This document shows positions 1,593 through 26,549 of a DNA stretch of 64,000 nt, piece by piece. The stretch's first letter is position 1. Each line of letters begins with the position of its first letter. A program made the position numbers and the translations under genes. The notes below the pieces were generated by a model, which had not been told where the DNA came from, searched no databases, and saw only the letters and a program-made list of their open reading frames with translations. Source of the DNA: Cladophialophora immunda (lineage: Eukaryota > Ascomycota > Eurotiomycetes > Chaetothyriales > Herpotrichiellaceae); NCBI RefSeq assembly GCF_000835495.1, contig NW_015622541.1, positions 4,464,001-4,528,000 of the forward strand. Direction: 5' to 3'.

Positions 1593-4483
1593 TCAACCAT
1601 TCACTATGGACTCGCCATGGGTAGCATGTGCAAACAACAACAGCTCTGCGTTTTGCGGATTCGCCGAATTCGCAGCATGCGTCTCACGCCAGTCTAGCAA
1701 AGCTTCATGAACCGCCTCGTCACTGTCGATAAGAATGAAATCGCCATCCTCGTCGCGGTAGCGCAACCGAACAGACCCGGAAGCAATAGAATGATTCGTG
1801 AACCGTGCTAGCTTCGCGTCGATACGATCGGCCAACGATCTGAACTGAATGTTGCTGGCGATGATCATCGAGACATAGTTCTCATCGAAGCAGACTTTGG
1901 CTTTGAGTTGACTGGGGATATACGGTTCACCATCGCTCGAGGGCGACGATACCGGAGGCGAGAAAGCCCGACCTTGCGAGAGTGAGGGTGCATGTCCAGG
2001 TCGCCTAGGATCAATGTTATACGATGGATCATAACTATAACCGTGACCTGGCATGGCAGGGCGCGGCGCAGAGGGCAGCCCAAATTGTTGATGTGGAGTG
2101 CCTCCTCGTGAGGGAGGTGCGTTAATAGGTGAATTGTTCTGACTCCTGCTTGGAGGAGCCATCTGTTTGGCCATATGAGCGGGTATAGGTGGTACGGTTG
2201 GGACATGCTCGGTCGAAGTGTACTTGCGACTTTGTTGAACCATTGGGTGCACATCAGGACTGCTCGCAGATCGCATGCGAGGTACCGGCATTCCTGGGCC
2301 AGATGACTGTCCTCGACTTCGGCCGTTGGCCAGATATGGATTTCCACTTGTTTGGCCGTTGGGGTTTCGAGCCATGGCGGGAGCAGTGTTTCGATGTGAC
2401 TCTGGAGGGTGCATGCCCCCGCCCACTGGAGTAGTCCCTCGGTGATATCCCGCAAAGGCAGATTGTGAACTCGAGCGAGCCGACATTGATGACCCCGGCG
2501 GCGTATCCCGGTCAATGGGAGAGAAATATGAGCCGCCGTTGAATTCTTGCGGAGACGCTGTGGGAAGTCCTCGAGTGTTCAGTGAAAGTGCCCCTATTTC
2601 GCCAGTCGGCACTCGCATGCGGTTAGCTGACATTTGGGGACCACTGCCTCCGCTGCCTCCCGTGGCGGACCGTGACCGAAGACTCGTACTTGAGGCGTTT
2701 CTGCTCATGCTGAATTCGGAATATCCATTTACATCAGTTCCACCATAAGTTGTGCTGGAAAGTCTGTTGTAATCGTCGTCCTCATCCTGAGCGAGATATG
2801 GATTTTCTAGGTTCGCTCCCTGCAAGGAAAGGAGATGAGTTTCCGAAATGCCTCTTGTCTTCGACTCTAGCATGCATGCCGACCGTTGAGTCTCAATCAA
2901 GTTGTGCCACTTTTGCAGTGTGTCGTCGTTTTTGAATTTGATGTTGAACGTCTCGATCCCTGATTCGCCTTTCCATGAAATCTGTAGGCAATAATTTCCG
3001 GGACTTGTCGTAGGGATGACTTGGGTGACATTGGCAAAATAGATCCGTCCTTTCAAGTTCATCTTGGGCTTGCCGCGTAGACTGAGTGCCGGTTTGTTGT
3101 TCGCCAGCCTGTTCTTCGGTTTGTTGGCATTGACATCTTTGCACATGACCAAAATCCGGCTGAAGAGGTAGATATGATATTCTTTCTCGTCTGATCGAAT
3201 GGCGCTCTCTTTCATGACACTAAACGTTCCAAGCAGGAGAAGCTCGCCAAGGGCCGCAATTTGCAATTGTTTCCAGTCGTCTATCCGCTCTTGTAGATCT
3301 TGAAGGGCGTCATCTCGAGTTTCCTTGTCGATGGAAGCATCCGCCTGCATGAGCACATCTTGAATGATGGCAATGGCACTGGTCAGATCGGACTTGAGGG
3401 TAGGGTCTTCTATTTGATTAAGCAGGTCCTGAGATGGTCAGCAACGATCTCTCAAGTCAATGATATCCCACATACCTTCAGCAGGAGAGGATATTTCGTC
3501 AGCCTCTGGAAGGGCTTGAGGAGAAATCCGTTGAGAATTGTGGGGTTCGCGAGCATCTGTTGCGTCAATGGGGATCTTGCGGTCGCAACCATTTTGTCCC
3601 ATTCCTGTTGGCAGGTGGCTTCGCATCTCCTCTGGTTGGCAATGAAAGGCTCGTACTGTCGGAAAGGATCCCTGTAGTGAACAAAAAGTCGACCCCAATT
3701 CTGTTGCTCTTCTGGCATTTCGTTTTGTTGTTCGATCCGAATCAAAAATCGTTGCGCAAAGTCCAATAGATTGTTAAGGTTGAGGAAAATGTTGTGGATG
3801 GCATCCCCAGTCAGGGCGCCTACTTCTTCCAGTTCCTTCTTCAACGCTTGCAAATTTTGCAAATGATGAACATACTGTCTCTCCGTCTCCACAAGTTCCC
3901 TTAGGATATATTGTCGTCGGGTCATTGTCTTTGGGGTCTGCTCTGGAGCGTTGGATGCGGCGTCCGTCCCGTCGCGAGAATCTTCACTGTCCGTTGATGG
4001 GTGGAGTTTGCCGCTCAACTTCAGCATGTCCAGCACCCGGTTCACCAGTTTTGTGACCTTCACAAATCCAGTGGTATTGTCGCTATACAGATCGGTCACA
4101 GTGAAGGTGTCAGCTGCCGGAATGTTCATCTGTTGCATGCATGATTTGATGAACAGAAATGCTGCTTCCTTGCCTACTCTGTCCGGCCGACTTGTATCAA
4201 CAGTAAGGTCGCCTTCTTCCGGGTTGGAAGCATTATAGATGGTGAGCAGCGGTAGGCCGCTTCTGAAACACTGCCACAGGGAAGACACCGGATCGGTCAA
4301 ACCATCGGCCTCGCGCTCTTCCATTTCCTCGAGGTACGGGCGGAACCCAGGCACACCGGACAAGCGTCGCCGAAGTTTGATACATATTTGGTAGAGCGAT
4401 TCCCCATCTCTTACATTTATAATGTTGTTTTTGTCCAACATTGGGCCATGGTCACCGTTCATAGTCTGCGGAGATGCCAACAT
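1593..4483 (-). CDS. cdc24: Cdc24-type guanine nucleotide exchange factor for Cdc42
   Basis: Two exons (4483-3476 and 3428-1593; 47-bp GTATGT...CAG intron) encode 947 aa. An N-terminal Cdc24/CH-like region (about residues 20-150, LYQICIKLRRRLSGVPGF) is followed by a DH/RhoGEF domain (about 190-370, RRQYILRELVETERQYV ... PFQRLTKYPLLLK). A PH domain (about 390-520) precedes a long Ser/Pro/Gly-rich disordered linker. A C-terminal PB1 domain (about 850-940, KVCFDENYVSMIIASNIQF) ends the protein. This order is diagnostic of Cdc24, which activates Cdc42 at sites of polarised growth and binds Bem1 through PB1. The ATG at 4483 fits the family, but the upstream sequence has splice-like sites, so a short extra 5' exon is possible. 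The gene is intact. Confidence 0.92.
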
Positions 4484-20617: not shown

Positions 20618-21439
20618 TGCATGACCCCGATCCGATACCGTCCTCTGAAACCCCCTCAATATACCTCTACAAGCGCAGCCATTACAGCCAACCAGCAGGC
20701 AAGAGTTGGGGAAGCTCGAACAGAGTCATTGATGATGCTTTGTTGTGTTCGGTCAACGTGATCCTGAGATTGTGTCATGGCGTCCCAGTTTCCCCATTTA
20801 CCATGGACGGCGAGATAGGGTGTTTGTGTGTATGTAATAAAAGAATGACGACCGTATCCTGTAGAACTTGTTCTGAATGTATCCATCTGATTGAAGCCGA
20901 GACTACACGTTTGTTGTCATCAGCTGCTCCCCTCGTAGATAAGACACTGGAAGACAGACTCCGCAGGCACCCATTGTCCCCAGCTCACCCAACGATCTTG
21001 CCAAGAACTGTATGACAGATGGCACTTTTACAACTGCCGGGTTAAAGCGGGCAGACGCGAATGCAAGTGCTTTGCTTCCGCTGCCGTAACACCTATTCCA
21101 AACTTATGCGCCAGCTTGTCTGTTAACTTCACAAACAAGATTCACGGAATTAGAAGGACTGAGTATATTGGCATGGTTGTTACGTGATTTAGTATATCAT
21201 TGTATACATACTCTTGATATTCTGGTTCGCGATTGTATGACTTGTTGCTACATGGAACACACCTGCATTTACTGAGTATGTCCATAAATCCCCTAATACA
21301 AACGGAAATATCTAGGTATTGTGCCAGAGAAATTTACTCACTGAACTCGGCAAGTCTGGTAGGAAAGCGAAAACGCCAGTCCAACTGTGAGATACGTGGG
21401 GGCGTTGGGAATAAGGCCCAAAAAACAACCTGAGTTCCA
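20618..21439. other. Intergenic region
   Basis: 3' flank of copy B up to the tRNA terminator. No supported feature. Confidence 0.5.
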
Positions 21440-21463
21440 AAAAAAAAACTCGAAAAAAGAAAC
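21440..21463 (-). terminator. RNA polymerase III terminator of the tRNA gene
   Basis: On the minus strand the tRNA 3' end (GGGGAG) is followed by TTTC, a run of six T (21459-21454) and, a few bases on, a run of ten T (21449-21440). This is the usual Pol III stop signal and supports the transcription direction of the tRNA gene. Confidence 0.8.
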
Positions 21464-21498
21464 TCCCCGACAGGGAATCGAACCCTGGTCTCCCGCGC

Positions 21499-21513
21499 TC
21501 GTTATTATGAAAT
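21499..21513 (-). other. Canonical 15-nt tRNA intron (position 37/38)
   Basis: TTTCATAATAACGAG interrupts the anticodon loop one base 3' of the GTC anticodon, the standard site cut by the tRNA-splicing endonuclease. Removal gives the loop TTGTCAC on the TCCGC/GCGGG stem. Confidence 0.8.
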
Positions 21514-21526
21514 GACAAGCGGAAAC

Positions 21527-21579
21527 TGAATTGGATGTTAGATGACGAACAACTATCTGCTCATATGATATGACTTACT
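21527..21579 (-). other. 53-nt spliceosomal-type intron inside the tRNA gene
   Basis: On the minus strand the segment starts GTAAGT (consensus U2 5' splice site), has TCTAAC 13-18 nt before its end (fungal branch-point consensus) and ends AATTCAG. Its length equals that of ordinary introns in this window. Clean removal restores D-stem positions 24/25. It is at the wrong place for a eukaryotic tRNA-endonuclease intron. Confidence 0.75.
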
Positions 21580-21875
21580 CATGACCACTAGACCATCGAG
21601 GACACCATACGTGTGATCGTTGGTTGTTGAGAAGATTTGCCGTTAATAAAAAGATAAAGTCAAGTAAATCTGCGGAACCACGCGCCAGCATACTTTCCAA
21701 TCAAAGACTTGCAGAGTACCCACATATCTACCTACCTGTAAGTATTCACTTACCAGGTATTCAACTCTGGAGACGTATTAACTACAAATTATTAGGTGCC
21801 GAGTCTCAGAATAATTGAAGAAAATTATTTATTGTATCCTGCCTGTCCTTCACCTGTCTATCTTCATGAGAAGCC

Positions 21876-23663: not shown

Positions 23664-24048
23664 GAAAATGCCTACAGCTCCTCAGAGGTCGAGACTGCCA
23701 GGCCAATTGACGAGCTGGGACATGGATCCTGTGACCTGACAAGTCCTGGCTGTCGGACGTAGGCAGGACCTTAGTCCCGACATCTGGTTTAGCCCAGGAC
23801 ACCTGTCCCGGGCCAAACCAGAGTCTAGGCCTGTCTCCCCAGAGGGTGAGTCGAAAGGTGAGATAAAGGTGAGCGAAAGTGAGTCGTGAGCAGGTGGTTT
23901 TAAAAACGGGGCCGTCTAGGTGAGTGCGCCGTGAGCGCCGAGCAGATTTACCATTGCTTGAGCTGCCAAGCCTCGTTAAAGTCCTGTTCGCCCTCACCAC
24001 CTTCCGTGATTTCCATTCATCACACATCATTAGTGACGAGTTCTTCGA
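23664..24048. other. Intergenic region with a 40-nt palindrome and a GTGAG cluster
   Basis: Between the UDG-like gene and mss1. It holds a near-perfect hairpin at 23783-23822 (19-nt arms, 2 mismatches, 2-nt loop). Seven GTGAG pentamers follow at 23846, 23858, 23869, 23879, 23886, 23920 and 23931. It probably acts as terminator and promoter region; the roles are inferred. Confidence 0.6.
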
Positions 24049-26549
24049 ATGCCATGTCGCATTGGTTTCCGAAGTGTGAGCAGAAACCCTCTCCTCTTCT
24101 ACGCCTCCCGGAAATGTGCTCAACCATGTGGTTTGAGCGCGGTTCGCTTGAATGCGCCTCGAACTCATTGGCGACTCCAGTCGTCCTCGGCCGCAGTCCC
24201 TGACCTTGAAGAATGGCCCGCAAGAGCAAGCCAACACACAGTCTCTGACACAATATATGCACTATCGACTGCTCCAGGTCGAGCTGCGATAGCAGTTATC
24301 CGTATCTCGGGCCCAGCATGTCTTCCCATTTACCAACGGCTCTGCCCAGACCGTGGACCGCCAAAACCTCGCGCCGCGACGCTGCGAAGGCTGTACGATC
24401 CCAACAACCCACAATCCTCAGATCCCCGAGTCCTTGATACTGGCGCACTAGTGTTATACTTCCCCGCTCCCAACACGGTGACTGGTGAGGATGTGCTCGA
24501 GCTGCACGTCCACGGCGGCCCCGCCATTGTTCGCTCGGTTTTGGACGCCGTATCAAGATGCGGGCACTCGATGCATGAAAGAGGAGGAGCAGTGAGACAA
24601 GCCGAACCTGGCGAGTTCACAAAGTGGGCATTCTACAATGGGAGATTGGACCTTACACAAGCCGAAGCGTTGGGTGATACCCTCGCTGCTGAGACAGAAC
24701 AACAACGCCGCTTGGCTGTCAGCGGTGCAGACGGCGGACTTGCAAAAAGATACGAAGAATGGCGTACCATGTTGCTATACGCTCGAGGGGAGCTAGAGGC
24801 GCTGATCGACTTCTCCGAAGATCAGCATTTTGATGAATCGCCTATGGAGTTTGTGGCCTCGATCTCGCAACAAGTGCGCGCACTGAGGAGACAAATTGAG
24901 CTACACATTCAAAATGCCTCCAAGGGGGAGCTGCTGCGTAATGGCATCAGCATAGCTTTACTGGGTGCGCCCAATGCGGGGAAGAGCTCCTTGTTGAACC
25001 AGATTGTCGGACGAGAGGCTGCAATCGTCAGTGCCGAAGAAGGGACCACTCGAGACATTGTCGACGTCTCGATTGATCTTGATGGCTGGCTATGCAGACT
25101 AGGTGACATGGCCGGTCTCCGCGCCATTGGGGCCGTCGGAGAGGAGCAGCAACCTGTCGGCTTGGTGGAACAAGAAGGCATACGTCGAGCAAGAGAGCGG
25201 GCCCTGCAATCCGACGTTGTTTTGGTACTGTTGTCCGTGGAAATGGATAGAGATGGGAACCCGCATGTCCCTGTCAACGGGCAAGTTCTTGAGGCAGTGC
25301 AAGAATGCGATGCCGCCGGCAAAACTATTCTCGTCGTGCTAAATAAGATTGACCTGCTGGACATGGATGATGGACCAAAACAAAGAGGCATGAGAGCCTT
25401 GCAGACACAAATCCGTCAGACATTTCCAACAGTCCCCGAGCGACGGATATGCATGGTGTCCTGCAAAGGTGCTGCTCACAGCCTGGTCGGCTCTGACCCT
25501 GGAGGCATTCAAGCATTCCTCAGACAACTGACCAGCTCATTCACGGAATTAACGACAGCATCTACCAGCGAAAATATCGCGGATACGCAATTGACTGCCG
25601 CGGAACTACAGTCCTACTGGACCACGTCCCTCTCGGTCACGCATCGGCAGACCACGTACCTGTCGCAGTGCTTACATCATCTCGAGGACTTCCTTGCCCA
25701 GAGCCAGTCGCAGACTCAGTCTCACCTGCATACGGAAACAACGGAAATCTCCGATTCGTGCAATTCGGCCACTGATTATCACGCTGATCGCCACGATGAC
25801 CCTGTCGCTCCAAATATAGCACACGTCAACAGAGATGGAGATGCAGACGGTGCAGTCGATATTGTGGCTGCGGCGGAACATCTCCGTTTCGCCGCCGACT
25901 GCCTGGCCAAGATTACGGGTAAGGGAGGATCCGGCGATGTGGAGGACATCCTGGGTGTCGTTTTCGAAAAGTGAGTAGGCACCTTTCTCCTTGTTTTCTC
26001 CCAATCACTTGCTTTTGCGCTTGTTGTCATTCGTCGTGAGGAAGACTTCCTGCCAAAAGAAAATGGTCTCGAAGGTCCAAAATTGTGACATTCGTGGTCG
26101 CATGCTGATTCTGGGTATCTATCTCCAAATGTGTCTGTATAGATTCTGGGGCTCATTCTGGTGTCGCATCTGTCCTGTTGATCCACACTCTGGGCTGGCT
26201 GTGCCCATGGAAGCTCCCTGTTTCCTCCTCAACTCTCCAAAAGAATGGGGGACCATGTCCAAAAAGAAAGACTGCAAAATATTCCACTGCCAAGCCCTGC
26301 CCCCAATGCAATGCCCCTTCCTAGATGCCATTAATATCCCATATGTACCCTGAAACTCCCGAAAAATCGTCAAAATGTTTTTTGCGTTCCTGCGCCTTGT
26401 TGTTGAATCATGCTTCCGGAGCAAAGTGGTGTGATTATATGCCAAATCGAGAAAAAAGACAACTCCTGGAAATGCCGCTAAGTGTCGATGAGTGATGTGG
26501 GCAGATTGCTGAACTTTTGGTGCTGTACAGGTTCTGCGTTGGAAAGTGA
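24049..26549 (+). CDS. mss1: Mitochondrial tRNA-modification GTPase Mss1 (MnmE/TrmE)
   Basis: Exons 24049-25970 and 26531-26549 (560-bp intron) encode 646 aa. The N-terminus is Arg/Ser-rich and presequence-like. It is followed by the TrmE N-domain (TIYALSTAPGRAAIAVIRISG, GEDVLELHVHGGPA, EPGEFTKWAFYNGRLDLTQAEA). The GTPase domain has G1 GAPNAGKS (residue 306), G2 TTRD, G3 DMAG (usually DTAG) and G4 NKID. The 19-nt last exon restores the invariant C-terminal FCVGK; without it the protein would end VVFEK. MnmE with MnmG (Mto1) makes the 5-carboxymethylaminomethyl modification of U34 in mitochondrial tRNAs. A polar, low-complexity insert (about residues 560-610) interrupts the helical domain. Confidence 0.92.

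Follow-up and report, generated by a model that had tools for sequence, protein, structure and literature searches.

Introns of apparently spliceosomal type in nuclear tRNA genes of the black-yeast fungus Cladophialophora immunda

Can a nuclear tRNA gene carry an intron of the kind that the spliceosome removes from mRNA precursors? Textbook accounts keep the introns of nuclear tRNAs apart from spliceosomal introns; the canonical tRNA introns, at position 37/38, are removed by the SEN endonuclease and tRNA ligase. The question is raised here by a tRNA-Asp(GTC) gene within the window, by which we mean the whole stretch of 64,000 nt that was analysed (contig NW_015622541.1, positions 4,464,001 to 4,528,000). 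A sequence-only reading of this DNA had noticed a 53-nt insert, GTAAGT...TTCAG, between tRNA positions 24 and 25, and had offered three options for it: an intron removed by the spliceosome, the mark of a pseudogene, or an intron cut out by SEN at a non-canonical site. The insert proves to be real, its anatomy and an uninterrupted paralogue being in agreement, and it belongs to a genome-wide phenomenon rather than being an isolated oddity.

A tRNA-Asp gene with two introns

The gene lies on the minus strand, one base below the span 21464-21603 first given for it, and is laid out as follows in window coordinates.

21463-21602, minus strand: tRNA-Asp(GTC) gene including both introns, 140 nt, recognised by its cloverleaf and by a second Asp gene with an identical mature form
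21579-21602, minus strand: exon 1, tRNA positions 1-24
21526-21578, minus strand: 53-nt intron of spliceosomal type at 24/25, missing from the paralogue
21573-21578, minus strand: 5' splice site GTAAGT
21537-21541, minus strand: putative branch site CTAAC, its A 12 nt before the end of the intron
21526-21528, minus strand: 3' splice site CAG
21513-21525, minus strand: exon 2, tRNA positions 25-37, with the anticodon GTC
21498-21512, minus strand: canonical tRNA intron at 37/38, 15 nt (21 nt at the same site in the paralogue)
21463-21497, minus strand: exon 3, tRNA positions 38-73
21585-21595, minus strand: A box TGGTCTAGTGG, intact
21474-21484, minus strand: B box GGTTCGATTCC, intact
21453-21462, minus strand: T-run resembling a Pol III terminator

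The separate 15-nt intron, the intact A and B boxes and the terminator that had been described are thus all located. The insert has the frame GTAAGT...CATCTAACATCCAATTCAG, contains CTAAC and ends in TTCAG. As had been claimed, its removal restores a cloverleaf: with the 15-nt intron taken out as well, the product is a 72-nt tRNA-Asp(GTC) with a complete set of invariant bases and a cloverleaf score of 26.1, equal to that of the intact paralogue. This second tRNA-Asp gene (L002/L034), at C5:1943782-1943874, has a 21-nt intron at 37/38 and nothing at 24/25, and once GTAAGT...TTCAG and the 37/38 introns are removed the two mature forms are identical at 72/72 nt. Because the mature paralogue is identical and lacks the insert, the flanking bases fix the boundaries of the insert exactly and allow a single placement. 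When deletions of 44-71 nt were scanned in the window gene, 1,712 gave scorable cloverleaves, and one alone reached the top score, that of GTAAGT...TTCAG. Among 5,280,000 random genomic segments of 49-69 nt, only 124 (2.3e-5) combine GT, G at +5 and AG with a CTRAY placed 10-15 nt before the end. Folding of the Asp RNA gave the spliceosomal-intron reading no help: the minimum-free-energy structure of the spliced form departs from the standard cloverleaf (z = -0.96), and before splicing the RNA is more stable than its shuffles (z = -2.77).

Tools that leave the insert in place overlook or misread this gene. Over the whole window, ARAGORN in bacterial mode reports no tRNA gene and Rfam at the gathering threshold no match, while a permissive Rfam scan of 21300-21800 yields weak partial matches only. 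ARAGORN with its intron option calls a false tRNA-Met. Elsewhere in the window, an MnmE-like protein is encoded at 24037-25974, and a PDB search with an esterase from the window returned nothing relevant.

Interrupted tRNA genes across the genome

How far does this arrangement extend beyond one gene? We searched the 42.2-Mb genome (39 contigs). An Rfam tRNA search, in which 63 of 935 candidates were scored, gave 23 matches and led to three further insert-bearing genes (Glu-TTC, Arg-TCT and Ile-TAT); more genes came from B-box patterns, applied with and without a T-run requirement, and then from sequence stretches around a subset of the matches. In this incomplete census 18 of the 42 recognised tRNA genes carry one to three GT-AG inserts, 26 inserts in total. 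By anticodon, the interrupted genes are Asp, Glu-TTC, Glu-CTC, Arg-TCT, Leu-TAG, Leu-TAA, Leu-CAG, Pro-CGG, Pro-AGG, Pro-TGG, Ile-TAT, a second Ile-AAT gene, Ala-AGC, Asn-GTT, Val-AAC, Ser-GCT, Phe-GAA and Lys-CTT. The 24 insert-free genes comprise 20 of the 23 Rfam matches (L039-L056, L058, L059), the second Asp gene, Leu-CAA (L088), Ala-CGC (L119) and Val-TAC (L121). With a plain B-box pattern that is blind to introns (84 places), half of the recognised genes, eight of 16, are interrupted. No gene for Tyr, Trp, His or Gln was recognised in this incomplete census, where split B boxes escape the patterns and a subset of matches was fetched. Among the interrupted genes, the two for Glu (CTC and TTC; L107 and L144) lie about 0.7 kb apart within C7:3601900-3603150, both with introns of spliceosomal type at differing positions. 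The tRNA-Lys(CTT) gene (L070; C3:2714900-2715500, minus strand) apparently holds three GT-AG introns beside a short 37/38 intron; one of the three sits in the 3' acceptor strand, and the last base of the gene is T. It is also the least clean of the genes, with an anticodon stem of 4/5 pairs and a third intron that was placed by eye and missed by the automatic search.

Several of the introns (those of Leu-TAG, the second Ile-AAT, Ala-AGC and Glu-CTC, and the D-stem intron of Ser-GCT) were first seen by eye, and all of these were later reproduced by script. We wrote our own cloverleaf scorer because ARAGORN, applied to spliced sequences, gave spurious alternatives and missed Leu-TAG, the second Ile-AAT, Ala-AGC and Glu-CTC; Leu-TAG and the second Ile-AAT were missed because their donors fell outside the search pattern. 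After intron removal 17 of the genes score 25.7-27.0 and the 18th scores 27.0, and 20 uninterrupted genes score 25.1-27.0. An automatic search that allowed one or two GT-AG introns with YTRAY recovered 17 interrupted genes and no further spliced tRNA among the 185 different B-box-like sites that the fetched stretches contain (the central parts of longer loci).

The same 185 sites permit a scan that makes no assumption about intron ends. At the 164 sites with a raw score below 25, we considered any deletion of 45-72 nt that lay upstream of the B box or reached it, with unrestricted ends, and counted a site as repaired at a score of at least 25.5. Ten of the 164 can be repaired; a GT..AG deletion restores all ten, and the next best pair of ends, TA..GG, six. 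For introns in loops many neighbouring deletions restore the fold equally well, so that from 1 to 134 end pairs serve at a given site. In scans of individual introns the proposed GT-AG deletion is unbeaten in 19 of 22; in the other three (Ala-AGC, the second Asn intron and the Ser variable arm) other deletions do better by 0.3-1.0 points. Twelve of the scans, in two-intron genes, are dependent because one GT-AG intron had already been removed.

Could these genes simply be dead? The insert would then make the window tRNA-Asp a pseudogene, the intact Asp gene sufficing, and the remaining interrupted genes would likewise be pseudogenes. An intact Asp-GTC gene and an intact Ile-AAT gene (L044) do exist, and short insertions within the tRNA genes of eukaryotes are for the most part taken as signs of pseudogenes (PMC4090602, available part). 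The sequence-only reading had asked whether all Asp-GUC genes carry the insert, and they do not; it had named several intact copies elsewhere as a ground for doubt, and one was found, so that this doubt holds in part. Since that gene exists, the window copy could be dispensable. Against decay, however, stand the undamaged mature Asp sequence, with its boxes and T-run kept, and the scale of the loss that would follow: of the 42 genes recognised, 18 would be without function, including those for Phe-GAA and Asn-GTT, of which no other copy was found. Nor would random decay have kept splice signals in all 26 inserts. BLAST of 16 spliced tRNAs (all except Asp and Glu-CTC) against the genome hit 16 places, 15 of them the queries' own genes and one the intact copy of Ile-AAT. 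For 14 of the 16 the own interrupted gene is the sole match, with Ile-AAT matching the intact copy as well; the sensitivity of this search is limited, Ser-GCT not being recovered and a similar Leu-CAA gene not being reported. To our knowledge Phe-GAA and Asn-GTT are the sole decoders of their amino acids, and, given that limited sensitivity, both seem to exist only as interrupted genes. Decay is thus possible for the window copy, yet it leaves 18 full cloverleaves unexplained, and as a general account we regard it as very unlikely.

Anatomy, removal and transcription

The inserts have the anatomy of introns in mRNA. All 26 have GT..AG ends and lengths of 49-69 nt; the 5' splice site is GTRNGT-like, with G at +5 in 25 and A or G at +3 in 24. 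The branch site reads CTAAC in 22, CTAAT in two, CTGAC in one and TTAAC in one, hence CTRAY in 25 of 26, and in every case 10-15 nt separate the branch A from the end of the intron. Script detection demanded GT, AG and YTRAY near the end, and neither CTAAC nor the tight spacing, although where several YTRAY motifs occurred the script chose CTAAC. The inserts are spread over the tRNA: at 3/4 (2), 7/8 (2), 8/9, 9/10, 13/14, the D loop (5), the 3' D stem including 24/25 (3), 26/27, 29/30 (2), 32/33, 42/43, 43/44, the variable region (2), 52/53, 53/54 and 68/69. For comparison, the window contains the following introns in protein-coding genes.

3429-3475, minus strand: mRNA intron of a Cdc24-like gene, 17/17 junction residues matching P0121
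55530-55590, minus strand: first mRNA intron of an MFS transporter gene, 17/17 residues matching P0241
55408-55456, minus strand: second intron of the MFS gene, with a CTAAC branch site, 17/17 residues matching P0241
55028-55080, minus strand: third intron of the MFS gene, 17/17 residues matching P0241

In this small sample all four protein-verified introns are GT..AG, 47-61 nt long, with CTRAC-like or TTGAC signals, which bears out the earlier remark that the insert resembles the mRNA introns of the window in ends, branch site and size. Runs of five or more T are absent alike from 25 tRNA-resident introns and from 12 predicted mRNA-type introns. The canonical 37/38 introns, which lie inside the same genes as the inserts, are of another kind: among the 36 of at least 8 nt (38 genes tested), which measure 8-57 nt, none has GT..AG ends.

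Might SEN nevertheless remove the inserts, at non-canonical bulge-helix-bulge (BHB) sites? Non-canonical and multiple BHB introns are known in tRNAs of crenarchaea and of the red alga Cyanidioschyzon (PMC4090602, available part). In the simplest form of the BHB, however, the 4-bp central helix is complete in one of our 26 inserts and reduced to a single pair in 13, with two of four pairs for the window intron; the canonical 37/38 introns mostly reach two or three pairs (three in 15 of 36, four in one of 36). All 26 inserts, moreover, have GT, a branch site and AG. We know of no need for any of these three features in BHB introns. We therefore reject BHB splicing of the inserts, which fail this simple test and in which archaeal-type splice motifs are not enriched; the SEN option of the sequence-only reading is extremely improbable.

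Its spliceosomal option, by contrast, is strongly supported by the sequence, 26 inserts in 18 genes being alike in 5' splice site, branch site, spacing and size. Our analysis suggests that the window insert is very probably a U2-type GT-AG spliceosomal intron gained by a nuclear tRNA gene, and that it belongs to a set of at least 26, found in at least 18 such genes of this fungus. The best reading is that the spliceosome would remove the GT-AG inserts and leave the 37/38 intron to the tRNA endonuclease. RNA polymerase III would transcribe the interrupted gene and terminate at the T-run; nuclear U1 and U2 snRNPs would bind GTRNGT and CTAAC, and the spliceosome would take out the GT-AG intron or introns as lariats, whereupon, we propose, the cloverleaf could form. 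The ends would be trimmed by RNase P and RNase Z, and the short 37/38 intron cut out by SEN and tRNA ligase, presumably in this order. The sequence evidence that tRNA genes here contain spliceosomal introns is very strong; we infer the removal of these introns and the polymerase at work.

As for origin, the introns may have arisen by independent gains, for instance by reverse splicing. They could instead be copies of one mobile family spreading in the genome, as introner-like elements, which reportedly occur in fungi. The introns of Asp and Glu-TTC and the first of Lys do all start with GTAAGTCAT, but an all-against-all comparison of 25 tRNA introns finds just four 10-nt matches, and these lie over splice motifs. 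On this comparison among tRNA introns a one-family introner origin is not supported, and it seems improbable to us.

The polymerase deserves separate attention. Twelve of the 26 introns lie within or 5' of the A box, where they would weaken the internal promoter. This counts against the mechanism just proposed and would suit a variant in which the spliceosome removes the inserts from capped precursors made by RNA polymerase II; it is on Pol II transcripts that spliceosomes normally act. Yet even 3' splice sites leave the B-box sequence unchanged, the AG of the Pro-TGG (L140) intron supplying G53, and a run of 5-8 T starts 1-23 nt past the gene in all ten interrupted genes that were found without a T-run filter; by comparison, TTTT turns up within 35 nt of 598 random positions out of 6,600. 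U6, in addition, is an example of a Pol III RNA that undergoes splicing (PMC10484740, available part). Transcription by Pol II is thus unlikely. A simple scan finds an upstream TATA-like element in 10 of the 18 interrupted genes, in 8 of 20 uninterrupted genes tested (of 24) and at 67 of 1,320 random positions, so that both classes of gene have promoter features in common; upstream of the window Asp gene, whose A box is intact, the same scan finds none. We infer Pol III transcription, with upstream elements lending help in genes whose A box is split.

Some further loci were seen in passing. The U6 snRNA gene (L138:85-185; C3:4237770-4238149, minus strand) matches Rfam RF00026 over the full model length at 89 bits; we see no intron in it, TATATATTT lies upstream, and a B-box-like motif lies downstream of its T-run, a layout that is also that of budding yeast. 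Three other loci (L122, L132 and L137) have B-box-like motifs downstream of T-runs and no Rfam match at the gathering threshold, and may be Pol III genes, so far unannotated, whose B boxes are external; in L132 the motif has upstream of it a long inverted repeat, formed by TCGTAGTGGTTGCTGCTAGACCC and its complement. A lone 5' piece of tRNA-Asp (L035; C3:2775572-2775594, minus strand), with 22 of 23 bases, stands in unrelated surroundings, again with no Rfam match at the gathering threshold.

Consequences and known systems

What would follow if this reading is right? Our analysis suggests that in this black-yeast fungus the machinery of mRNA splicing is also needed for making tRNAs. The spliceosome would be able to process very short transcripts of Pol III, in which the internal exons go down to 6 nt (Lys) and 11 nt (Val); it could be essential to tRNA supply; and spliceosomal introns would have been gained inside a highly structured RNA. 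Intron gain would become testable at a site whose intron-less sequence is known from a paralogue. The tRNA annotation of such fungi would also be incomplete. We lean towards the view that decoding requires the spliceosome, tRNAs such as Phe-GAA and Asn-GTT coming solely from Pol III genes that need spliceosome and SEN in one molecule, and that the trait is common to related black yeasts, whose tRNA counts would be partly low as standard finders miss such genes.

Published counts, cited here from the available parts of the papers, stem in the relatives from various tools. The C. immunda genome paper gives 52 tRNAs, 28 of them spliced, by tRNAscan and Infernal, and mentions six RNA-seq runs, which belong to another assembly (PMC5595782). 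In relatives the numbers are 38 for E. mesophila, 64 for E. lecanii-corni and 73 for E. dermatitidis (PMC8709033), 30 for F. erecta (PMC5640708), 78-79 for Knufia obscura (PMC11133487), and 37-76 for domatium fungi against 143-208 for carton fungi (PMC8900376); in an annotation of E. dermatitidis every tRNA except Trp was found (PMC4463862). The low counts fit under-detection and prove nothing, several of the counts not being low.

Among the matches listed in the open-licence literature, a scope outside which subscription papers and most preprints fall, there is no report of spliceosomal introns in tRNA genes. The word stem "spliceosom" is absent from the available part of a review of tRNA introns (PMC4090602), and a 2026 review, as far as its text was available, has tRNA splicing rely on specialised protein enzymes and not on the spliceosome (PMC13149111). 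Several introns per tRNA gene are nonetheless familiar from crenarchaea, nucleomorphs and Cyanidioschyzon merolae, and non-canonical positions in archaea include 3/4, 25/26, 29/30 and 53/54. Those introns differ from ours in being of BHB type or, in the Guillardia nucleomorph, 3-24 nt long with a mechanism given as unknown (all PMC4090602, available part), whereas the present ones are GT-AG introns of 49-69 nt with a branch site.

Parallels also come from other structured RNAs. Fungal U3 snoRNA genes have ordinary spliceosomal introns in a structured non-coding RNA, likewise inferred computationally and with experiments for two species only; U3 is not a tRNA, however, and 133 of 138 U3 introns lie in the 5' half (PMC5832005, available part), whereas those described here are spread over the tRNA. 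The U6 snRNA of fission yeast and other fungi offers a further likeness, an mRNA-type intron, thought to derive from reverse splicing, in a Pol III transcript that must fold (PMC10484740, available part). U6 differs as a single snRNA gene at the heart of the spliceosome, whereas here many tRNA genes are concerned, each also with an endonuclease-type intron at 37/38. The kind of intron is thus already known, and U6 is a precedent for a spliced Pol III RNA.
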